Source: a virus. Taken from it: a stretch of DNA of 51,947 nt. Each line of letters opens with the position of its first letter. The stretch's first letter is position 1. The notes under the pieces are model-generated. The model saw nothing but the letters and a program-made list of their open reading frames with translations. It did not search any database and was not told where the DNA came from. Position numbers and translations under genes: made by a program. Shown piece after piece: positions 12,892 to 51,947 of the stretch. The stretch is from positions 1 to 51,947 of the IMG/VR virus record IMGVR_UViG_3300032241_001638. One strand, 5' to 3'.

Positions 12892-13584
12892 CTAATTATT
12901 AGATAATTCTTCTCTTGCTTTTTGATACTCAATATCTAAATCAACTGAGTAATTCATTCCTATGAATGAACTGTAATCAGCACCTCTAGTCTTAGACAAA
13001 GTCTTACTAAATGCTGTGTACATAGCGTAACTGCCTGTTACATTACCTTCCCAATTCATTGTCCCGCTAAATCCTCTTGAACCACCTTCTTGAAATGAAT
13101 CTTGATTAGCACCCAAGTAAATAAACTTCCAATTATAAGTTGTTTCCTGATGTTGAATCATTTCCTTGATTAACGATGTTGTATACTGTCTAGATGAATT
13201 TTCTTCTCCATCTGTAATCACTACAACTATTACCTTTTCCGGTCTATCTTCTTCGTTCAAGGATGCTAATTTATCACCTAATTCCTTGATGGTAATTCCT
13301 AGAGCATCATTTAACGGTGTTCCTCCTCTTGGAATATAATTAGATTCGTTTAATAAAACGACACTATCTACAGGTGAGAAATCGTTTGTTCTCTCTAACG
13401 ACAAAGTTGAATCTCCTGACCAACCTGCACTATCGAACTGTGTTAATGATACGGTTAATTCACCGTCTTCTTTCTTTTGATCTTCTATTAATTGATTGAA
13501 TCCACCGATTACATCTAGTTTCATAGATGACATCGATCCTGATCTATCAATTAAAATAGATACGTGTGTGTAATTAGACTTCAT
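12892..13584 (-). CDS. VWA-domain protein
   Basis: 230 residues forming essentially one von Willebrand A domain. The MIDAS motif DRSGS (13-17) follows the first strand, a threonine in GGTPLND provides the second MIDAS loop, and VVITDGEENS supplies the third. No signal peptide, so it acts in the cytoplasm. VWA proteins usually work with an AAA+ ATPase or as adhesion modules, but no partner is visible nearby. It has its own promoter at 13619-13650. Confidence 0.85.
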   Translation of the reverse strand: MKSNYTHVSILIDRSGSMSSMKLDVIGGFNQLIEDQKKEDGELTVSLTQFDSAGWSGDSTLSLERTNDFSPVDSVVLLNESNYIPRGGTPLNDALGITIKELGDKLASLNEEDRPEKVIVVVITDGEENSSRQYTTSLIKEMIQHQETTYNWKFIYLGANQDSFQEGGSRGFSGTMNWEGNVTGSYAMYTAFSKTLSKTRGADYSSFIGMNYSVDLDIEYQKAREELSNN

Positions 13585-37194: not shown

Positions 37195-38397
37195 CTACCC
37201 ACCCACAGCAAAGCTGATGGGATGGGCTTCGGGTTTCACAGCTTTATGCTTCTTTGCAGAAGTCTTATTTATAGCTCCACCCGTGTTTTCGACAGTTCCT
37301 GCCGAGTTTAATATTTTTAATCCTTCTTTGAGAATATTTTTTGCAGCATTAAGGTCACGGTCTAATACGTGTCCATTCTTACAAGTCCATTCTCTTATTG
37401 AAAGGTTTAAGTCTTGATTTATCCAACCACATTCACAACAGGTTTTTGAACTTGGATACCAACGATTGATTTTGATAATTTGTTTGTCATTCCAATTCGA
37501 TTTGTATTCCAACAACCTTACAAAAGTTCCCCAACTGGCATCTGATATGTGTTTTGCAAGTTTGTGGTTTTTAACCATTCCTTTCACGTTTAAGTCTTCA
37601 AGACATATTACATCGTAATTAGATACAATATCATTACTTACTTTATGCAAGTTATCCATTCGTGAGTTAGTTATCTTCTCGTGAATTAAGGCTATTTTTC
37701 GTCTTTGTTTTTCAAACGAATTACTACCTTTTGTTTTGCGAGAAAGATGTTTTTGTGCTTTCGCTAACTTTCTTTCATATTGCTTTGTGTATTTGTTGTT
37801 TTTGAATTTAATTCCATCAGATGTAATAGCAAAATCCTTCAGTCCTAAATCAATTCCGCATACAGCACCAGTTTTTTCTTTTGGTTCATACTGTTCTTCG
37901 GAAAGAATTGATACAAAGTATTTACCTGTTGGCGTTTTGCTCAAAGTACATTTACCAATTTGACCTTTTACTTCACGGTGAACATTAACCTTTATTCCTT
38001 CTTTGAACTTTGGTGCGTAAAATCTATCTGCTTCCAGTTTTGCAAATTGTGGAACTGTAAATGTATTTTTATTTTTTCTTGACTTAAATCTTGGAAACTT
38101 AGCATTACCACGAAAGAAGTTTACATAGGCAGTATCTAAACACCTTAAAGCAAATTGTAAGGATTGGCTATTCACTTCTTTAAGCCAAATAGTTTCCTCT
38201 TTTTTCTTTAATTCGGTGAGAGTTGCTGCTTGTGCGTAGTAGTTATTAGACTTCTTGTCTGCCTGATATTGTTCTTTTCTCTCATTCAGAAAATGATTAT
38301 ATACAAATCGGATGCAACCGAAATGCTTATCCAACAAGATTTTTTGCTCTTGTGTTGGTTGCAATTCAAATTGATATGTTCGAAATATTGTCTTCAT
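37195..38397 (-). CDS. tnpB: TnpB, RNA-guided endonuclease of IS200/IS605
   Basis: 400 residues, full length. RuvC motifs: Asp183 (GIDLGLKDF), Glu267 (ICLEDLN) and Asp346/348 (LDRDLNAAKN). The zinc ribbon is formed by C320/C323 and C339 with H343. The N-terminal HTH-like part (YQFELQPTQEQKILLDKHFG) is typical. TnpB cuts DNA guided by an omega-RNA that overlaps the 3' end of its gene and the element's end, and helps keep the element at its site. It diverges from tnpA. Active-site residues intact. Confidence 0.93.
   Translation of the reverse strand: MKTIFRTYQFELQPTQEQKILLDKHFGCIRFVYNHFLNERKEQYQADKKSNNYYAQAATLTELKKKEETIWLKEVNSQSLQFALRCLDTAYVNFFRGNAKFPRFKSRKNKNTFTVPQFAKLEADRFYAPKFKEGIKVNVHREVKGQIGKCTLSKTPTGKYFVSILSEEQYEPKEKTGAVCGIDLGLKDFAITSDGIKFKNNKYTKQYERKLAKAQKHLSRKTKGSNSFEKQRRKIALIHEKITNSRMDNLHKVSNDIVSNYDVICLEDLNVKGMVKNHKLAKHISDASWGTFVRLLEYKSNWNDKQIIKINRWYPSSKTCCECGWINQDLNLSIREWTCKNGHVLDRDLNAAKNILKEGLKILNSAGTVENTGGAINKTSAKKHKAVKPEAHPISFAVGG
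37198..37226. repeat. IS end palindrome (tnpB side)
   Basis: CCCACCCACAGC-AAA-GCTGATGGGATGGG folds into an imperfect hairpin with bulged T residues, the form recognised by Y1 transposases. It overlaps the 3' end of tnpB, where the omega-RNA would end; the guide would be read from the flank beyond 37196. Confidence 0.7.
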
Positions 38398-38514
38398 TCT
38401 ACTATTAAATAGTTTTATTTTATGTAAAGATAATACTTTTTTGTAAATCTGCTACATTTTTTTGTAAATATTTCCATTCATTTTGAGAAACATTCACAAA
38501 AAAATTCCGCTACT

Positions 38515-38925
38515 ATGTCTAAAAAAAGTAATTACATCAGCACAAATCGTTCAAAACATTACTTAAAGTGTCATTTAATCTTTGTTTGTAAATATCGTAA
38601 ACCAATGTTAGTTGGTCAGTTAAATGGTGATATTAAGCAAATATTTCAATCTATTGCCGATGGTTCTGATTTTGAAATTGAGGTAATGGAAACCGACAAA
38701 GACCACGTTCACTTCTTAATTCGTTACATTCCTCGTTTATCCATTTCTCAAATTGTCCGTAGGTTAAAACAAGAATCTACTCGTCAAATTTGGTTATTGC
38801 ATCCAACTATACTTCGTAAGCAATATTGGTATCAGTCAATTCTCTGGTCAGATGGATATTTCGTTTGCTCAATAGGTGAAGCATCGCCTGATACTATTCG
38901 TGAGTATATTCTCAATCAGGGTTAG
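38515..38925 (+). CDS. tnpA: TnpA, Y1 HUH transposase
   Basis: 136 residues, full length for IS200-type TnpA. HVH at 64-66 is the HUH metal site; Tyr131 in REYIL is the nucleophile. It cuts and joins single-stranded DNA at the element ends, acting as a dimer. The gene begins 118 nt from the tnpB start on the other strand. Confidence 0.93.
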   Translation: MSKKSNYISTNRSKHYLKCHLIFVCKYRKPMLVGQLNGDIKQIFQSIADGSDFEIEVMETDKDHVHFLIRYIPRLSISQIVRRLKQESTRQIWLLHPTILRKQYWYQSILWSDGYFVCSIGEASPDTIREYILNQG

Positions 38926-41629: not shown

Positions 41630-42208
41630 ATGGCAGATAATGCGTTATTAAAAGAGTTTAGGAGCAAAGACGTAAAACGTCTTCGTAACCTGTTTTCAGG
41701 AAATGCAACCCAATCAACAGGTACCCAAGTAGGGTACGAGAAAGGTTTTACCGAATACAAAGAAGGCGACACCTGGGTAGAAGATGGTAAAGAATGGACC
41801 ATAAAAGATGGTATCAGGCAGACCAATACGAAATACAGCTCAGTTAAAAAATTATTATTTGCACCATTAGTGTGCCCTTCATGCAAGAACAGTATGAAGC
41901 ACAGGCTCGACTCTAAATTTTACAGTTTATTTGAGCACTGCTTCTCCTGCCAGTTATCCTTAGAAACCAAACTAAGAGTAGAAGGTAAGTATGAAGAGTA
42001 CGCCCAAAGGATAATGACCGAAAACGCAATTACATTTACAAAAGATGCAAGGGCGTTTATGAAGGAACTAAATGGAATGGACAGAGGTATTTACACAGAA
42101 ACAGGTGAAAAACAAAACTGGACTGGTAACAATAGTAATGACCATATAATCCAACAAATGGACAAAGAGCTTACCGAACTTGAAAATAGAATCAATGAAA
42201 CTAATTAA
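41630..42208 (+). CDS. Zinc-ribbon phage protein
   Basis: 192 residues. The segment EWTIKDGIRQTNTK is familiar from a conserved T4-like structural-region protein. A zinc ribbon follows: CPSC, then FEHCFSC. The C-terminus is a coiled coil that overlaps the next gene. Function unknown. Confidence 0.65.
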   Translation: MADNALLKEFRSKDVKRLRNLFSGNATQSTGTQVGYEKGFTEYKEGDTWVEDGKEWTIKDGIRQTNTKYSSVKKLLFAPLVCPSCKNSMKHRLDSKFYSLFEHCFSCQLSLETKLRVEGKYEEYAQRIMTENAITFTKDARAFMKELNGMDRGIYTETGEKQNWTGNNSNDHIIQQMDKELTELENRINETN

Positions 42209-42422
42209 CTTAATCCTAGAAGGAAATGCAGTTTATCCTCCTGGATACAAAGCTGCAAGAGAAGTACCTTACGGAGGTGCCAATTGTGCTAACTGCATAA
42301 AATGGAATGCCGATAAGGGAGAGTGTGAAGGTAAATACTTCATAGAGTATAATGGTTCAGGAGTTATACCTACTGAGCCTGAAAAGTATTTATGTAACTG
42401 GTGGACTCAAACTAAATCCTAA
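42195..42422 (+). CDS. Small Cys-rich protein with capsid-targeting-like start
   Basis: 75 residues from ATG 42195, which overlaps the end of the previous gene. The start MKLINLILE-G has the [IL]-x-E site of T4-type prohead cleavage. Four cysteines (CANC, EC, LCNWW) in a pattern suggesting a metal or iron-sulphur site. Probably packaged in the head if the targeting reading is right. Confidence 0.6.
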   Translation: MKLINLILEGNAVYPPGYKAAREVPYGGANCANCIKWNADKGECEGKYFIEYNGSGVIPTEPEKYLCNWWTQTKS

Positions 42423-42442
42423 CAAATAAAAAACAAAAAACA

Positions 42443-43165
42443 ATGATTAAAGAAGCGGATCAAATCGCAAACAAATTTAGAAAAAGCTTTCTTAATGAAG
42501 GCGCGGTTGTTAACGTGAAATCACTTAACCAACAATCATCAGACTCTTTCTTTACTTTGAATAGTGAAGGTCAAATCTCTAATGTATCCCAGACCTCATT
42601 AGACGAGGCTCTAGACACTTTAAATAGTAAGTCAGTACTTATCACTATCAAAGACCTAAAAGCCCTGTATGAGTCTAAAATGATGGCTACTGTAGGAGAG
42701 TACGAAGAAGAACAAGATCCTCAAGAGTTACACATGGTTGCAGGTGAACTTGATTCTATCTGTGAAAATGTAGAATTCTTAAAGATGCAAGTAATGGAAG
42801 GTCACGATTGGCCAGCTTGGGCATTCCAACATTTAAACGTTGCATGTGATAATATTGAAGAAGTCACTACATACTTCAAAGCAGAGAAAGACCCATACAT
42901 GGATCAATATGAAGACGAAGGAATGTACACCGAAGAACCCAATTCTTACGATAATATCGGAGTGGTAGGAGAAGTAAAGAAAAAGAAACCTTCTGCCGGT
43001 CTTACCAAGAAACAAAAATCAGCTGTTGTAAAGAAAGCTGAGAAAGGTGAAGATATAGGCAAGCCAGGGAAGACGTTTGAGAAAATTGCTAAAAAAGCAG
43101 GAGGTGGTGAAAAGGGTGAAAAAATTGCGGCGAGTGTCATGTGGAAGAATATTAAAAGGAAATAG
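42443..43165 (+). CDS. Head-associated protein with capsid-targeting-like start
   Basis: 240 residues. The start ends in KSFLNE-G (L-N-E at 22-24). Residues about 70-170 are acidic and helical. The C-terminal 65 residues are extremely basic (KKKKPSAGLTKKQKSAVV ... KAGGGEKGEKIAASVMWK), a tail often seen in T4-like phage proteins and suited to DNA binding in the head. Confidence 0.6.
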   Translation: MIKEADQIANKFRKSFLNEGAVVNVKSLNQQSSDSFFTLNSEGQISNVSQTSLDEALDTLNSKSVLITIKDLKALYESKMMATVGEYEEEQDPQELHMVAGELDSICENVEFLKMQVMEGHDWPAWAFQHLNVACDNIEEVTTYFKAEKDPYMDQYEDEGMYTEEPNSYDNIGVVGEVKKKKPSAGLTKKQKSAVVKKAEKGEDIGKPGKTFEKIAKKAGGGEKGEKIAASVMWKNIKRK

Positions 43166-43169
43166 TAAG

Positions 43170-43763
43170 ATGACTAAGCAATACCTAATGGAGGCCTCCG
43201 ATATATCAACCTTATCCGAAGGTCTCCAATACCATATAAAAACACAAACACCATTAAATGAATCGATTTATCGCCCAGGCTCTAATAGCTTTTATCATTT
43301 GTTCCGTGAGGCTAGAGAACTTCTTCAAGAAGGTAACATTATCCTTGACACGATTGACACAGAGATTTTAACAGAAACAGACTTAGGTGAGTTTGGTGAA
43401 TACAATGGTATAAGAGTTCCTTTAGATTATCCCCTTACTGAGGATTACCTATTGATGGAAGCCGAGTTCCATGGAAAGAGTGTCCAGTTGAATCACCCTA
43501 GGCGTAATTCAGGTTCAGGTAAAAAGTATGTAGTCTTTACACACAACCCTAAAACCGGTAAGGTAATTAAGGTTACATTTGGAGACAAGCATGGAGGTCT
43601 AAGTGCTAAAATTAGTGATCCAAAGGCTCGAAAAGCTTTTTCAGACAGAATGAACTGCCCAGCTAAAAAAGATAAAACGAAAGCAGGGTACTGGAGTTGT
43701 AATCTCCCAAGATATTTTTCATTGATTTCTCCAGGCTCTAAGAATATAAATTCGTACTGGTAG
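43170..43763 (+). CDS. Head protein with multiple prohead-protease-like sites
   Basis: 197 residues from ATG 43170; the upstream open frame overlaps the previous gene and is not used. The first 110 residues contain LME-A, LSE-G, LNE-S, LQE-G, LTE-T, LGE-F, LTE-D and LME-A, eight [IL]-x-E sites. The C-terminal domain (FGDKHGGLSAKISDPKAR, then NCPAKKDKTKAGYWSCNLPR) is a compact, basic module also found in other phages. The N-terminal half could be cut up during maturation and release the C-terminal domain. Confidence 0.6.
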   Translation: MTKQYLMEASDISTLSEGLQYHIKTQTPLNESIYRPGSNSFYHLFREARELLQEGNIILDTIDTEILTETDLGEFGEYNGIRVPLDYPLTEDYLLMEAEFHGKSVQLNHPRRNSGSGKKYVVFTHNPKTGKVIKVTFGDKHGGLSAKISDPKARKAFSDRMNCPAKKDKTKAGYWSCNLPRYFSLISPGSKNINSYW

Positions 43764-43820
43764 GGCAGTCGCAATATAGTATAAGTAATTATAATTAATA
43801 GTAAACTACTTAAAACAATA

Positions 43821-43830
43821 GATATTTATA
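43821..43830 (+). promoter_or_regulatory. Candidate late-promoter motif
   Basis: GATATTTATA with no credible gene directly downstream; it precedes the structured RNA at 43839-43985. Confidence 0.45.
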
Positions 43831-43838
43831 TACATTAA

Positions 43839-43985
43839 ATGCTTAAAGCCTCGTTAACAGACCATTTGGTAGCTCTGTTATTGTGGTAACTAAAAAGTAG
43901 ACTTAGTAGACGTACTGAGCCTCAAAAATCCTGTGGTTTGATTCCCTAGGTAAACCATCTACTCACAATAGGGGGTTTCTTTTTT
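43839..43985 (+). ncRNA. Candidate structured late RNA / attenuator
   Basis: Follows a GATATTTATA motif. Helices: TAACAGA/TCTGTTA (43855-43861/43874-43880), AGTAGA/TCTACT (43905-43910/43958-43963), and TGGTTT/AAACCA (43934-43939/43952-43957), the last two stacking end to end as in a tRNA acceptor and T-arm. AAACC at 43952-43956 can instead pair with GGTTT at 43974-43978 in a terminator hairpin, so the two folds exclude each other. A 16-codon ORF (MLKASLTDHLVALLLW) begins at 43839 and could be a leader peptide. The rest of 43764-44184 contains no gene. Confidence 0.4.
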
Positions 43986-43986
43986 T
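43952..43986 (+). terminator. Intrinsic terminator
   Basis: AAACC pairs with GGTTT across a 17-nt loop, followed by CTTTTTTT. It ends the upstream late transcript unless the alternative pairing of AAACC wins. Confidence 0.6.
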
Positions 43987-44144
43987 GTCTCAATTATAGT
44001 ATAATTTTGCGACAAAATATTATTTAAAAACCTTAATCACATTGAATTACAGGTACTTTTAATAACTAAGGGGTCCTCGCTAAAAAAGGTGGTGTAATTT
44101 GCTCATTATCAAATTCACTAGAAAAAATGACAATTAACTATCAA

Positions 44145-44180
44145 TAATTCGGGTATTTTCCGAATTAATCCTTATTTTTG
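44145..44180 (+). promoter_or_regulatory. Promoter with overlapping inverted repeat
   Basis: TATTTTTG (44173-44180) matches TAnnTTTG and lies 4 nt before the ATG at 44185; the -33 region reads TTCG. A perfect inverted repeat TAATTCGG-GTATTTT-CCGAATTA (44145-44167) covers the -33 region and spacer, where an operator would be. Confidence 0.6.
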
Positions 44181-44184
44181 CACA

Positions 44185-44451
44185 ATGCAATATCCATTTA
44201 CCGAACTAAAAGAACAAGGCTATTATATTAGAGAATTTTCCCAAGAAGTACCTGAAGAAGAGCTAGTCTGGCACAGAGACAGAGAAGACCGAATAGTAGA
44301 ACCACTACACAATACAGACTGGAAACTGCAGTTAGATGACGAACTACCTGTCATTATAGACAAACCTATATTTATTAAGAGAGATATTTTCCATAGATTA
44401 ATAAAAGGAACCGATAGCCTTAAGATAAAAGTAACTAAACTGCACATATAA
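44185..44451 (+). CDS. Conserved phage protein
   Basis: 88 residues. The segments WHRDREDRIVEP, NTDWKLQLDDELP and HRLIKGTDSLKIKV form a pattern seen in short proteins of many T4-like phages and in Bacteroidota; function unknown. First gene after the terminator, with its own promoter. Confidence 0.65.
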   Translation: MQYPFTELKEQGYYIREFSQEVPEEELVWHRDREDRIVEPLHNTDWKLQLDDELPVIIDKPIFIKRDIFHRLIKGTDSLKIKVTKLHI

Positions 44452-44454
44452 CTC

Positions 44455-45129
44455 ATGATGATTAACGAAATAATCCTCCAAGTCCAATACAGTCAAACTA
44501 ATTTAGTAATAGCAGCTTTTACAAGTGTAATTACAGTTTTAGGAGTATATATTAAAGATGCAGTGGAAAAATCAGTAGCTCTCGGAAGAGCACGAAAAGA
44601 AGAAGAAAAGAAGAATGCCCAGATAGATAAGTCGTTGCAACACAATAATAGTATACAAAAGAAAATCAAAGAAATCCTAATACAATTACAAGGTTACACA
44701 GAATGTTCCAGAGCTTGCTTATATGCATATCATAACGGAACCAAAACACATTTCGGGTTTTCAATGAATTTTGTTTCAATGATTGAAGAGAAGACAGATG
44801 GAATTGTAGCACCACTTATAGATACATTCCAAAACATACCAGCAGGTTATTTCAGAACTATCTTAGATAAAGTAGACAAATCACAAGAAGGTTACGCAGT
44901 TATAGAAACAGACGAACTAGATGGAGATGACAAAAGGATGATGGAGAGATACCAGATTGCAATGTCATATGACTTTAAGATAGGAGCTACTGTTTATGAA
45001 GGTATGGTAAGTCTTGTATGGGTAAATAAAAAACATATACTATCTGAAGAGCAAATAGACCATATTCAACAGCTTGTGGACTTAATATATTACCTCCAGA
45101 AGGATATCCAAAAACTACCAAAATTTTAA
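44455..45129 (+). CDS. Membrane protein with GAF-like domain
   Basis: 224 residues. One transmembrane helix (about 18-36, LVIAAFTSVITVLGVYIKD), a charged coiled linker (about 45-80), then a GAF-like domain (CSRACLYAYHNGTKTHFGFS ... MVSLVWVNKKHILSEEQIDH). GAF domains bind small ligands; no output domain is present. It may sense a signal at the membrane during infection. Not a typical T4 component. Confidence 0.55.
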   Translation: MMINEIILQVQYSQTNLVIAAFTSVITVLGVYIKDAVEKSVALGRARKEEEKKNAQIDKSLQHNNSIQKKIKEILIQLQGYTECSRACLYAYHNGTKTHFGFSMNFVSMIEEKTDGIVAPLIDTFQNIPAGYFRTILDKVDKSQEGYAVIETDELDGDDKRMMERYQIAMSYDFKIGATVYEGMVSLVWVNKKHILSEEQIDHIQQLVDLIYYLQKDIQKLPKF

Positions 45130-45133
45130 TATA

Positions 45134-45670
45134 GTGCCAGACTTTACTTTTCAAAATTTCCGTAAATACATAGCGGAGGCAGACATACAATCACAAGAGG
45201 CAGAAGAATCCGATATGGACAAGGTTTTGTCTAAATCACCTAAGTTGAGGTATACTCTAATGCGTACTCTTACATCTCAAAAAGAACCTGGTCCAATTAC
45301 CGACAAAGAAATAAAAGATATCGTTACTGATATCAAAGTCATACAAAAAAGACCTACCACCTTCCGTATCATATTCAAGAATTCCAATTATATGGATTTG
45401 AAGTATGATCCCACACCAGGTATGGTAAGCAATCCTAAGAACTACACTCCATCAGATTACTTCAGAGCTAGAGTTCTAGGTAAAATATATGATTTAGGAG
45501 TAGGTTCCCAATATGAGCAATGCCTAGACCAAATAGGTATAGCCTTAAGACAAAACCCAATAGACACCAAGAATCCAGACTTAGAAACACAAGCAATAGA
45601 AAAGGGAGAAACTCCTACTGAAGAAGTACCAGCCGGCCCTAATCCAAAAGAACCAGAAACAGAAAGCTAA
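45134..45670 (+). CDS. Head-associated protein with capsid-targeting-like start
   Basis: 178 residues from GTG 45134. The start MPDFTFQNFRKYIAE-AD closely resembles T4 internal-protein targeting peptides (Y-x-E-F-I-A-E-A). A globular middle (RIIFKNSNYMDLKYDPTPGM) and an acidic Pro-rich tail (PTEEVPAGPNPKEPETES) follow. The end of the gene is duplicated before 46415 (repeat at 45655-45677). Confidence 0.6.
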   Translation: MPDFTFQNFRKYIAEADIQSQEAEESDMDKVLSKSPKLRYTLMRTLTSQKEPGPITDKEIKDIVTDIKVIQKRPTTFRIIFKNSNYMDLKYDPTPGMVSNPKNYTPSDYFRARVLGKIYDLGVGSQYEQCLDQIGIALRQNPIDTKNPDLETQAIEKGETPTEEVPAGPNPKEPETES

Positions 45671-45677
45671 TGAAAGA
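45655..45677 (+). repeat. 23-bp direct repeat, copy 1
   Basis: Identical to 46400-46422. This copy is functional: it encodes the ETES end of 45134-45670, the TAATG overlap and the start of 45670-46401. Confidence 0.95.
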
Positions 45678-46401
45678 CCTATACGGACAAGTATTAAGAA
45701 GTTTGCTAGAAGCAACAGAGTATAAGATAGAAATGAAGAATGGTAAAACTATAACTAAAGAACTTAGCGTTGATAATTATAAGAATATAATGTCAAAGAT
45801 AGGTACTTCTGATAGTATTATTAAATCTATAACTCCTATAGAAAGGAAAGAATTTAAAGATTTAAACGGAAAAGATTTCTATAAAAATAGTAATCAGAGT
45901 TCAGAAGAAGAAATATTAAAAAAGCTATACCCAAAACCTGGTCAAATTGAGTATAGAAATTTAGGTGAGGGTCTTCCTTTATTAGGAGGCCCTGCTTTTT
46001 CAGATTGTATACGTAAAGAGTTAAAACCCCTGTTAAAACAAAAGCAAGGGCTTCACATAAACCAAAAAGTAACCTGCCTTACCAATACAGCAGATTACCC
46101 CACACCAGAAGACGCAGTTAAAGAGTTAGGTGAAAGAATTTCTATTTTTCCTTCTGAATTTAGTAAGCTAGTAGAATTTACTAAAAATATAAGAAGAGAT
46201 TATGAAGTAATACAAAAATGTGACAGAGCTATACAAGATTCTTTTGATGAAGGTAAATTTAAACAATACCCAGCACCATTAAAATTACCAAAAAGTGATA
46301 TAAAAACTTATTTAAAATATTATGAGCAAGGAGGTCCTCATTTAGACCCATACTCTACTTACAATTTTATGATTAATTACCTAAAATCAAACCTAAAGTA
46401 G
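45670..46401 (+). CDS. Cargo-type protein with capsid-targeting-like start (cassette)
   Basis: 243 residues. The start MKDLYGQVLRSLLE-A ends in L-L-E. The rest is lysine-rich, with a C-terminal segment YYEQGGPHLDPYSTYNF. No family recognised. Flanked exactly by a 23-bp direct repeat, which suggests insertion as a cassette. It looks more AT-rich than its neighbours by eye. Confidence 0.6.
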   Translation: MKDLYGQVLRSLLEATEYKIEMKNGKTITKELSVDNYKNIMSKIGTSDSIIKSITPIERKEFKDLNGKDFYKNSNQSSEEEILKKLYPKPGQIEYRNLGEGLPLLGGPAFSDCIRKELKPLLKQKQGLHINQKVTCLTNTADYPTPEDAVKELGERISIFPSEFSKLVEFTKNIRRDYEVIQKCDRAIQDSFDEGKFKQYPAPLKLPKSDIKTYLKYYEQGGPHLDPYSTYNFMINYLKSNLK

Positions 46402-46422
46402 AAACAGAAAGCTAATGAAAGA
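46400..46422 (+). repeat. 23-bp direct repeat, copy 2
   Basis: Second copy, 745 bp downstream. Here it lies in the gap after TAG (46399-46401) and still contains a TAATG, although no gene uses this TAA; a relic of the end of the 45134-45670 gene. Confidence 0.95.
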
Positions 46423-46837
46423 TTTATTTTCTATATTACTTAGAGAAGAGTTTGATTATAGAGGTCAACATAGAGCACCTGGACCAAAAGAAGGCTCACC
46501 TTTATATGATGTAACATTGAATGGAATATACCCTGACGATGTTTATTCTAGGCAAGGAAAGTCATACTATGGGGATGGTGAGTCTTATGATTCTATTAAT
46601 TTTATGATTTTGAATAAGTACCGTAATAAACCTGATGCAACCTTAACTATTTTCAGGGGTGTACCTAAAAATATAAATGACATAAACACCGGTGATTGGG
46701 TTACAATAAACAGGCAGTACGCACAAACTCATGTAAGTGGTGAAAAAGGTTACAAGGTGATTTCTAAAACAGTTAAAGCTAGAGATATTTATACAGAAGG
46801 TAATTCCTTATCAGAATGGGGTTACTATCCAACTTAA
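46415..46837 (+). CDS. Small ADP-ribosyltransferase-like protein with capsid-targeting-like start
   Basis: 140 residues. The start MKDLFSILLRE-E carries an L-R-E site. The core has LTIFRGVP (candidate Arg of the R-S-E class), GDWVTINRQYAQTH (in the place of the S-T-S strand) and a C-terminal NSLSEWGYYPT (candidate Glu). This order is typical of a family of short phage and bacterial proteins with ADP-ribosyltransferase-like folds. T4 packages and injects the ADP-ribosyltransferase Alt, so this may be a minimal functional counterpart. Activity is inferred. Confidence 0.5.
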   Translation: MKDLFSILLREEFDYRGQHRAPGPKEGSPLYDVTLNGIYPDDVYSRQGKSYYGDGESYDSINFMILNKYRNKPDATLTIFRGVPKNINDINTGDWVTINRQYAQTHVSGEKGYKVISKTVKARDIYTEGNSLSEWGYYPT

Positions 46838-46842
46838 TACAT

Positions 46843-47250
46843 ATGATGACACCATCCCAACTCCAATCACTTAAGCAACATATAGCAGGACTTGTTCTTT
46901 ATTTCAGACAACAAGGATTTAATCTTAAACCTTATCCTCAAATCATATTCTCAAATGAGAATAACCCAGATGATATCCTGGATAAAACAGGATATTACAA
47001 TCCTGAACAAAACGTTGTAGTTATATTCACAAATGGCCGTTCTCCTAAAGACTGTCTAAGAACTTGTTCGCATGAGTTTATTCATGTATTGCAAGGTCAC
47101 AGAGGAGACTTAGCTGAGGATAAGATAGGTGGTGTATCAGATGATTACACAAAAGGTTCCGAACACCTAAAAGAAATGGAAGATGAAGCTTATCTAATGG
47201 GAAATACTCTTATGAGAGGCTATACTGAGAAGCTAAAAAGTAAAATTTAA
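46843..47250 (+). CDS. Zinc metallopeptidase-like protein (HExxH)
   Basis: 135 residues from ATG 46843, 5 nt after the previous stop; the upstream in-frame ATG at 46816 overlaps the previous gene. HEFIH at 77-81 with the following GHRGD and a third ligand Glu in EMEDEAYLMGN is a small HExxH peptidase pattern that I recognise from T4-like marine phages. It lacks a targeting-like start. It could process virion or host proteins. Confidence 0.65.
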   Translation: MMTPSQLQSLKQHIAGLVLYFRQQGFNLKPYPQIIFSNENNPDDILDKTGYYNPEQNVVVIFTNGRSPKDCLRTCSHEFIHVLQGHRGDLAEDKIGGVSDDYTKGSEHLKEMEDEAYLMGNTLMRGYTEKLKSKI

Positions 47251-48402
47251 ATGAGAGATTTACATTCACAGATTCTAAGGTAGGTTCTATTAGAAATATC
47301 AGACGCTGCTAAAAAGAAAGTAAAAGATAAGTTTAAGAAGGAGAACCCTGCTTTGACCGATGCTCAAATGGACTATTATATCCGTGTGTTTGAAAAGAGA
47401 GTTGCAAACTCTGTATTCAAGAAAAAAGACTTGTTCCAATATACCTTCTCAGAATTAGAACAAATAATAGACAAAAACTTCCCTGAAGAAACCAAACCTT
47501 CCAATAACGATACCGAAGAAGTTGACTTCAAAGGGTCTGAGGATGTTGTATATAATGATAATGGACTATTAATCCTCCTAGGAGATATAAAGGAGAAATG
47601 TGTCCGATATGGTAAAGGGTATTCATGGTGTATAAGCAGAACAGATGCTCGAAATATGTTTTTCAGCTACAGAATGAGACTTGATGAACCTGTATTCTAC
47701 TTCGTGTTAGATGAAGATAAGCCTAAAACAGATGTATGGCATGCAATAGTCATATACATAGACGCAGATGGAACTTACCATGTAGCTACGTCAGATAATC
47801 CAGGAGATAAAGAAATGTCATGGAATGAAATAGAACAGCATCAACCTAAGCTAAAAGGCCTAAAGGGTCTATTTAAACATATTCCATTAACAGCAGAAGA
47901 GAAAGCTGACTACGAAAAATTAGGTGAACCTGTCGAAGACAATGTCTACGACAATTTCAGTTATACCGAAAAGGAAAAGTACATAGGATTTGGACATGAT
48001 TTAACTGAAAAACAGTTGGAGAATACCCCTAAACAACTGTTAGGTAAGTACGCTGCTACAACTACAGGGGAGAATATGACAAAAGAGATGGTTAAATCCT
48101 TACCTCCCTCTGATCAAAAAGTACTTAAAGATAATAGGATTAAACGATATGGAAACGTAGCATTGTTCAAGTACTATCCAGAAGACCTTAAAGATGGTAT
48201 GACGATAGATGATTACCTTGATTTAAGGGGCACTAATATAAAGTCTCTTCCAAATGATTTAAAAGTAGGTGGTAACCTTGATTTAACTGACACTAAAATC
48301 ACTTCTCTTCCAAATGGTTTACAAGTAGGTCGTTTGATTTATTTAAATTCTATACTAATAAAAAAATATGGTGAAAAACGTATAGAACAAAAAGATATAT
48401 AG
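47251..48402 (+). CDS. LRR-containing cargo-type protein with in-frame TAG
   Basis: From ATG 47251, directly after the previous TAA, the frame reads MRDLHSQILR, TAG (47281-47283), then VLLE-ISDAAKKKVKDK and on for 372 codons. A TTG at 47353 gives an uninterrupted 349-residue version. The start matches the other targeting-like starts (MKDLYGQVLRSLLEA) across the stop codon. The middle has RYGKGYSWCISRTDARNMFF, a block known from large phage proteins, and the end has leucine-rich-repeat units (LDLRGTNIKSLPNDLKVGGN and a second copy). A nonsense mutation or read-through is possible. Confidence 0.6.
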
Positions 48403-49847: not shown

Positions 49848-50003
49848 ATGGGAAGGACTAAAAAATATACAACCGAAGAGCAGGTAAAAGAAGCTAAAAA
49901 CGAAGCTACCAAGCGTTATTATACACGGAACAAAGCCGTAATAGATGCTAAGGCTAGAGAAAAATACCAAAAGAAAAAAGAACCAATTGGCAAAAGCAGC
50001 TAA
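49848..50003 (+). CDS. Small basic protein upstream of terL
   Basis: 51 residues, ATG 49848 to TAA 50001: MGRTKKYTTEEQVKEAKNEA followed by RYYTRNKAV and a lysine-rich end. This K-K-Y-x-T-x-E-E ... Y-Y-x-R-N-K pattern recurs in very small phage proteins, often next to HNH or terminase genes. Probably DNA-binding. Its end overlaps the start of terL by 17 nt. Confidence 0.6.
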   Translation: MGRTKKYTTEEQVKEAKNEATKRYYTRNKAVIDAKAREKYQKKKEPIGKSS

Positions 50004-51947
50004 CAAAAAATCAGAAACACCTAATACACCGGCAGTAAGACCTGTAAACCTGAAAGAATTAGCTTTATCAGAGTTTAAGAAGTGTATGGAATCCCCTGAA
50101 TACTTCATATTAACCTATGTGTGGATTCAGACCACGTCCGGAGGTAGAAGTAAATTCCAATTATACCCTTTCCAAAGGAAGCTTTTACATCTGATGCACA
50201 CCAGAGACCGCATCATTATCCTTAAAAGCCGTCAGCTAGGTGTAACCACACTAGCCTCAGCATATGCATTGTGGTTATTCTTATTCAAGAATGACTCTTC
50301 GATACTCTGTATGGCTCCAACTACCAATATGGCTAAAGCCGTAATGGATAAATTTAAGTTTGCTTTTGAGGAGTTACCTAAATGGATGATTGAATTGTCC
50401 AATTCAACTACCAAAGAAGAAAACCAAAAGAAAGTTGTATCATCTAACGGATCAAAGATTGAGGTAATATCCGGAGCTAAGAACTCTGCCAGAGGTAAGA
50501 CAGCCTCTTTCCTTATTTATGATGAGTTTGCATTCGTAGAAGATGCAGAAGAGACTTATGCAGCAGCTCAACAAACACTAGCGACAGGAGGTAAATGTAT
50601 AGTATTATCAACTCCAGAAGGCACAGAGAATAAATTCGCAGATTTATACTCAGAAGCAGAATTAGGTAATAATGAATACCTGCCCATAAAGCTAGACTGG
50701 AGAGTTCACCCAGAGCATACACAAGATTGGAGAGACAGGCAAGACCAAGAGCTTGGTAAACGTCTTGCAAAACAAGAGTGTTTTGAAGGGGATACTAGAG
50801 TGTACACCAAAAGAGGTTTGAAGAAGATTTCCGATATAAAAACTGGGGATTATGTAATGACCCACACAGGTGAATTCAAAAAAGTAATCACCACTATGTC
50901 TCATGTATCTGATAATTTATGTACTATATATTCCTCAGTAAACAAAAGAAAGAGAATTGTTACTAATAATCATCCTTTTTGGGAAAATAATGAATGGGTA
51001 CCTTTATCGAATATCAATAACAAATCCTTGTTACCATCTTTTATAAAAAAAGAACATTTAATTAATCAGGTACTAACAGTAGAAACTGAAAGTATAATCA
51101 AGCCTCAATTTTTTAAAGTAAAGTACGATGGGGATTTTATTTATGTAAATGATAGGAGGCATAAAAAAAGATTTCCTAAAAAAATAGATATAGACTACGA
51201 TTTTGGTATAATAATAGGACTGTACTTGGCTGAAGGGTCTCAACAAAAAAATAGAATTACTTACAGTTTTAACTATGCTACAGAATTAAATACTTGGGTA
51301 CAACAAATAACAGGCATATTTTTAAAAAAATACAATATAGAAGGTAAACCTGCACAAAAAGCAGAAAAATCAGGGAATATAGATTTTAATTCTGGTATTT
51401 TTAAAGATGTATTAAATTCTTTTGTCACAGGACCTCACTGTTATCATAAAAAACTTACAGATTTTGCGTATGATTGCATGAGTCTAGATTTTGCAAAAGG
51501 TATATTAAATGGGTATTTTAAAGGAGACGGATGTCTAAAGCATATCTCTGAAAAATCATCTATCACAGCATCAGAGGATTTATCATACGATATATTTTAT
51601 TTATTTAAAATAATAGGGGCTTCTGGTATTAGATTGAAGACGTATCAAAAGAAAGGTTTAGCTGTTATGTCACATAGACCTGGATCAAAACCATATTACC
51701 CAGCTAGAACTTATACAGTTAGTGTGTCTAATGGTAGAAATTACACCTGTAAAGATAATGACATAACAGATATATTAGATAATAGAAAAAATTGTATACC
51801 TAGCATTGAAAAAGATATAGATGGTATAACGCATAATATAATTTTTAAGGAGGGATATAAAGAACCTTGCACTGTATATAACTTAGAGGTCGAGGATAAC
51901 CATACCTATATTACAGAACATTTTATAGTTCACAATTGTGACGCCGA
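49987..51947 (+). CDS. terL: Large terminase subunit, split by an intein, C-terminus outside window
   Basis: Start taken at TTG 49987 (context CCAA-TTG, as for other late genes); an in-frame ATG at 49945 is possible. N-extein of 264 residues: Walker A-like SRQLGVTT (81-88), Walker B FLIYDE (175-180, catalytic Glu180), motif III STPEG (208-212). This is the packaging motor ATPase. The intein at 50779-51936 follows GKRLAKQE, after which the extein resumes with CDA at the window end; the nuclease domain lies beyond. Overlaps 49848-50003. Confidence 0.85.
   Translation, partial: MAKAANKKSETPNTPAVRPVNLKELALSEFKKCMESPEYFILTYVWIQTTSGGRSKFQLYPFQRKLLHLMHTRDRIIILKSRQLGVTTLASAYALWLFLFKNDSSILCMAPTTNMAKAVMDKFKFAFEELPKWMIELSNSTTKEENQKKVVSSNGSKIEVISGAKNSARGKTASFLIYDEFAFVEDAEETYAAAQQTLATGGKCIVLSTPEGTENKFADLYSEAELGNNEYLPIKLDWRVHPEHTQDWRDRQDQELGKRLAKQECFEGDTRVYTKRGLKKISDIKTGDYVMTHTGEFKKVITTMSHVSDNLCTIYSSVNKRKRIVTNNHPFWENNEWVPLSNINNKSLLPSFIKKEHLINQVLTVETESIIKPQFFKVKYDGDFIYVNDRRHKKRFPKKIDIDYDFGIIIGLYLAEGSQQKNRITYSFNYATELNTWVQQITGIFLKKYNIEGKPAQKAEKSGNIDFNSGIFKDVLNSFVTGPHCYHKKLTDFAYDCMSLDFAKGILNGYFKGDGCLKHISEKSSITASEDLSYDIFYLFKIIGASGIRLKTYQKKGLAVMSHRPGSKPYYPARTYTVSVSNGRNYTCKDNDITDILDNRKNCIPSIEKDIDGITHNIIFKEGYKEPCTVYNLEVEDNHTYITEHFIVHNCDA
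50779..51936 (+). other. Intein with LAGLIDADG endonuclease in TerL
   Basis: 386 residues, complete. Splicing block A starts with Cys1 (CFEGDTRVYTKRG), block B has TNNH (62-65), block F is CTVYNLEVEDNHTY (364-377), block G ends FIVHN (382-386), followed by Cys +1 of the extein. The two LAGLIDADG helices are GIIIGLYLAEGS (143-154) and GILNGYFKGDG (241-251), with acidic residues intact. It should excise itself from TerL and the endonuclease could spread the gene to intein-free terL alleles. The insertion lies between the ATPase and nuclease domains. Confidence 0.92.

Follow-up and report, generated by a model that had tools for sequence, protein, structure and literature searches.

A putative island of capsid-targeted cargo genes in a genome fragment of a T4-like phage

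Introduction

The closest described counterparts of the proteins considered here are the internal proteins IPI, IPII and IPIII of bacteriophage T4, whose unrelated bodies follow a short propeptide that ends in [IL]xE and is cut by the gp21-family protease. The first ten residues of IPIII are enough for its packaging (PMC9026906). It was also shown that the internal proteins vary among related T-even phages and are recognised via their common signal (PMC3012670, PMC12373910), and that the three found in T4 block type IV restriction enzymes (PMC12373910). Several other systems bear comparison with this one. T4 Alt is a packaged ADP-ribosyltransferase. In SPN3US and other phages of the phiKZ type, propeptides of ejection proteins are removed by a prohead protease, which cuts after AxE (PMC10052503) and not after [IL]xE. 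The polyvalent proteins, finally, join several disparate domains (Iyer et al. 2017, PMC5512222).

Here we describe a locus at which a comparable set of proteins may be encoded; the phage is a distant relative of T4 and is known from environmental DNA only. The window, i.e. the whole stretch of DNA that was analysed, is an IMG/VR record of 51,947 bases. Its candidate cargo genes share with the T4 internal proteins the short propeptide ending in [IL]xE, the unrelated bodies and the variability between strains, and a gp21-family protease is found in relatives of the window. The differences are equally clear. The window leaders are lineage-specific and not homologous to MKTYQEFIAE of T4, a tag that is carried by the homolog of only one of the bodies. 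Unlike the basic internal proteins of T4, the window bodies are not all basic (pI 4.9-8.9, with several acidic ones at 4.9-5.0), and their genes directly precede the terminase gene. The window leaders, as we read them, work like the T4 tag but are not the same tag. The principle of cargo combined with a shared tag is already known from the T-even internal proteins; what is new here is the lineage, along with its cargo and its leaders.

Results

Judging by its sequence, the window derives from a T4-like myovirus. It encodes a gp6-like baseplate protein that shares 44% identity with its counterpart in Microcystis phage Mel-JY01 and 42% with the one in Flavobacterium phage immuto, and no near relative at the DNA level was found in the phage collection searched. 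The record is a fragment, ending inside the gene for the terminase large subunit (49987-51947, plus strand), which is open at the contig end and bears an intein-like insert at about 50779-51936. A close relative, G001 (IMGVR_UViG_3300021139_000006; 70,645 bases), is 94-98% identical to the window over the main shared blocks, some blocks of the early region being less similar, and lacks the insert in its terminase. Past the point where the window stops, its sequence goes on with the genes for the terminase, the portal protein, a PF03420 protease, the scaffold protein and the capsid protein. The portal gene of G001 (about 1083 aa) apparently has an intein-like stretch of its own.

It had been proposed in the first-pass annotation that seven proteins between 42195 and 48402 begin with short N-termini ending in [IL]xE and have otherwise unrelated bodies. 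All seven N-termini are indeed present and six of them open intact genes, while the seventh is interrupted by an in-frame TAG codon; family searches turned up no similarity among the bodies, as the annotation had claimed. The intact genes, all on the plus strand, are 42195-42422 (75 aa, a small protein of the CxxC type; its leader MKLINLILE, encoded by 42195-42221, is predicted to be cut off ahead of G), 42443-43165 (240 aa; leader MIKEADQIANKFRKSFLNE at 42443-42499, then G), 43170-43763 (197 aa, a member of the phrog_7595 family; its leader is MTKQYLME, 43170-43193, then A), 45134-45670 (178 aa, starting with GTG; its leader is MPDFTFQNFRKYIAE, 45134-45178, then A), 45670-46401 (243 aa, not assigned to any known family; its leader is MKDLYGQVLRSLLE, 45670-45711, then A) and 46415-46837 (140 aa; leader MKDLFSILLRE at 46415-46447, then E). 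The predicted propeptide is thus 8-19 residues long in at least six window genes. The interrupted gene (47251-48402, plus strand) reads MRDLHSQILR (47251-47280), TAG (47281-47283) and VLLE (47284-47295), then I, and its body past VLLE has an LRR-like C-terminus. Recoding of this TAG was considered and ruled out, since TAG terminates 9 of the 29 genes checked in the window phage; it is an ordinary stop here, so that the assembly shows a broken gene, unless a single base was misread.

The leader is absent from three neighbours, namely 44455-45129 (224 aa, plus strand), which has a hydrophobic N-terminus, 46843-47250 (plus strand), a gene for an HExxH metallopeptidase-like protein lying inside the putative cargo island, and 48472. 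By ortholog comparison the 46843 gene starts at 46843 or 46846, not at 46816. A further neighbour, 44185-44451 (88 aa, plus strand), has TELKE near its start, a motif that is not conserved in orthologs ([IL]xE in 23/46), and this gene is probably not cargo. Short and N-terminal as they are, the leaders might be taken for export or membrane signals; however, they have no hydrophobic core. Over 10 residues their hydropathy peaks at no more than 1.2, while the neighbours 44455 and 48472, which are membrane-like, reach 2.6 and 3.9, and such a function is therefore hardly credible.

Statistics confined to the window are suggestive, and it is the comparison with relatives that carries the weight. 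The bare [IL]xE motif occurs within the first 22 residues of 7 of the 10 cluster genes (44185 being counted and 47251 not), against 1.9 expected from shuffled sequences (P about 0.0002). Other ORFs of the window also exceed their shuffles, though weakly (18 versus 10), and the bare motif was dropped as proof of tagging because it is too common. Its frequency fits an alternative in which these N-termini are products of chance or composition, i.e. Leu/Ile/Glu-rich amphipathic starts with no common function. A stricter motif, defined by a post hoc rule applied to ATG starts only (the cut followed by A, G, S or E, with the E of the motif at residue 8-20), was found in 5 of 10 ORFs inside the cluster and in 0 of 69 outside it (Fisher P 1.1e-5).

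Conservation in orthologs argues against the chance explanation, as [IL]xE is kept in the cargo families and not in their neighbours. It was found in all six distinct N-termini of the 42195 orthologs, in which other leader residues vary, in 35 of 38 for 43170 and in 7 of 9 for 45134, compared with 0/5 and 0/6 for the non-cargo genes 44455 and 48472. Leaders change in other respects, FLNE giving way to FINE, YLME to ILME, and PDFTFQNFRKYIAE before A to TPFHPYEAFKRKLYE before A. The leaders of 45134 orthologs include LPDFVFENFRKYIAE, MTPFHPYEAFKRKLYE and MKDNIFEHFKRTIYE, each followed by A.

The reuse of leaders on unrelated bodies is also difficult to reconcile with chance. Among 5330 within-locus pairs of different body families, drawn from 80 related loci, 58 have at least five of the first ten post-Met residues in common, versus 0-4 pairs at six internal offsets taken as a control; related loci are not independent samples, several of these being near-duplicates, and paralogy may have escaped detection in some of the pairs. 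MIKLIDILNE heads three different bodies in G006, two adjacent genes of L123 begin with MK[QK]LLTEWRKFLKE, and further lineage-specific leaders are MKYLKxFE, MDNFDLKKYLAEG and MIKLKEIL. In the isolated phage immuto (NC_055915), a long leader, M-NFDLKKFLVENKLTxNSxxLxE, is common to three proteins (1803, 117631 and 118632).

A bridge to T4 is provided by the body of 46415, which follows four dissimilar leaders; every one of these has [IL]xE, with its final E, at the junction with the body. These are MKDLFSILLRE/E in the window, MKKLLTEWRKFLKE/E in L123, MNFKHFLE/N in L131 and MKTYTEFLSE/Y in gp301 of the Vibrio phage VH7D (Straboviridae), where the body is 39% identical to that of 46415. We read MKTYTEFLSE as essentially the tag MKTYQEFIAE of T4 IPII and IPIII, that is, a T4-type capsid-targeting sequence, and gp301 is therefore probably a packaged protein. 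Such a tag on a homologous body, added to the conserved motif and the reused leaders, leaves the chance explanation very improbable. T4 ipII and ipIII match a degenerate capsid-targeting pattern exactly, and another VH7D gene (MKKFGEFLTE) fits it when two mismatches are allowed; the reversed-pattern control gave no match. VH7D gp301 (L222:3974-4408) is annotated as 'ParB C-terminal domain'. In T4 itself, gp61.1 (NC_000866.4:18966-19130) starts with MKTFKEFIKE, which departs from the T4 capsid-targeting pattern at a single residue.

The 46415 body is also a domain of phage polyvalent proteins (C-terminal part of phrog_2579; BFVD matches). In L124 a domain of this type adjoins ART-PolyVal and GP88 within a multi-domain protein, whereas 46415 of the window is a single domain behind its leader. 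The order R...GDWVT...E in this body is reminiscent of ADP-ribosyltransferases, and its structure model is good (pLDDT 83). However, no Pfam, PDB-sequence or PDB-fold match was obtained, and the assignment suggested by motif order could not be confirmed; the likeness to T4 Alt extends to the idea of a packaged enzyme.

No gp21-family protease is encoded in the 52 kb window, a fragment that ends in the terminase gene, which accounts for this absence. The first-pass annotation had named such a protease as a check on its proposal, and PF03420 proteases were found in G001 and in four other relatives. The G001 protein (E 5.5e-27) matches the structure of T4 gp21 (5JBL, 1.4e-15), and its GELDH and GISSR fall where wild-type gp21 has GELNH and GVSSR, His and Ser being conserved; the 5JBL chain reads GELNA and GVASR, the His and Ser being substituted there. 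We take the aligned His and Ser of gp21 to be the catalytic H85 and S140. In six relatives, sites of the [IL]xE type are found also in the protease, in the scaffold protein and in the capsid protein. The protease site is YQLNE followed by A, and capsid sites such as KQILVE/E, KQLITE/S and KQLVNE/S correspond in position to GSFLTE/A, where T4 gp23 is cut. The N-terminus of T4 gp24 is MAKINELLRE, then S. S77 proteases are present in T4, in VH7D and in the L123 contig.

The cargo differs between close strains in the same pattern as that of T-even internal proteins. Genes 45670, 46415 and 47251 are missing from G001, where the flanking genes are cleanly joined, and the stretch after the 42443 leader is replaced there by a different one. 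In G002 the 45670 gene is present and is followed by another tagged gene (MDLFKKVLRSVILKE before D). The dispensability of three tagged genes bears on the possibility that packaging and cleavage do take place but the proteins serve head assembly alone, for instance as minor core or scaffold components, and are not injected effectors. That role would suit the 42443, 43170 and 45134 families, which are widely retained beside head genes, and the likeness of the 42443 leader to a scaffold tail, discussed below, also counts for it. It agrees poorly with the loss of three genes from so close a relative, with the occurrence of the 46415 body as a domain in polyvalent proteins, for which injection is predicted (PMC5512222), and with a tag on a P-loop kinase-like body in G006. 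We regard a role limited to head assembly as unlikely.

Relatives of 45670 were found in G002 and nowhere else. The 47251 body gave no relatives in a single-sequence search, whereas an alignment-based search retrieved seven loci, among them relatives with the leader MVKFHSLLKEFILSE. In L133 and L135 a body of this type is joined to a metallopeptidase-like domain with HELVH; the window has a domain of similar type in a gene of its own, 46843. C116, H153 and N172 are invariant in six sequences, a cysteine-protease-like C-H-N arrangement, and the model of the body is poor (pTM 0.41). Our literature search found no papers on virion proteomics of immuto phages.

Discussion

The protease and [IL]xE-bearing structural proteins of the relatives, together with the T4-type tag on the VH7D homolog of 46415, support the reading of the leaders as T4-type capsid-targeting sequences. 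Packaging and cleavage are likely because of that protease, the kept [IL]xE, the reuse of leaders, the VH7D tag and the variability of the cargo, and we hold it highly probable that the proteins encoded at 42195-48402 are packaged, protease-trimmed cargo. According to the mechanism that we propose, at least six genes of the cargo island would be translated into proteins with an N-terminal capsid-targeting propeptide. The propeptide would bind the inner core during prohead assembly and thereby recruit otherwise unrelated proteins, and a gp21-family protease would cut after [IL]xE, leaving the mature proteins free inside the head. The cargo would then exit together with the DNA and become active immediately in the host, where host defence or host machinery would be its most likely targets. 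By analogy with T4, injection and a counter-defence role of the tagged proteins seem fairly likely to us.

To our knowledge, the binding partner of capsid-targeting sequences is an open question. The scaffold proteins of the relatives end in F/W-[KRQ]-[KR]-[LR]-AG-[IL], and one class of leaders (MAKQILSEQFRRMQKLAGIITE) has this scaffold-tail element just ahead of the cut. EADQIANKFR of the 42443 leader matches the G003 scaffold tail EGEQIANRFK, the best match among all N-termini. Scaffold-tail scores of at least 28 were obtained for 12 of 416 leader N-termini versus 1 of 724 other N-termini, and for 0/416 and 1/724 internal stretches, in a comparison to which few families contribute and in which the likeness had been noticed before counting. 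It is conceivable, if doubtful, that some leaders mimic the scaffold C-terminal tail, so that cargo docks at the scaffold-tail site; the resemblance makes it testable what a capsid-targeting sequence binds.

If the proposed packaging is true, leader reuse, [IL]xE and an S77 protease would form a short rule predicting injected cargo among 'hypothetical' proteins of uncultured T4-like phages, and dozens of phage proteins of unknown function would become testable as injected cargo. As T4 internal proteins block type IV restriction, islands of this kind would then be candidate sources of counter-defence against unculturable hosts.

Two further observations concern other parts of these genomes. A TnpB-like gene of the window (37195-38925, minus strand) adjoins an IS200 TnpA-like gene, and in G002 a TnpB-like gene lies immediately ahead of the cargo island. 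In the early region of the window, on the minus strand, 12892-13584 encodes a von Willebrand factor A-like protein that starts with MKSNYTHVSILIDRSGSMSS.
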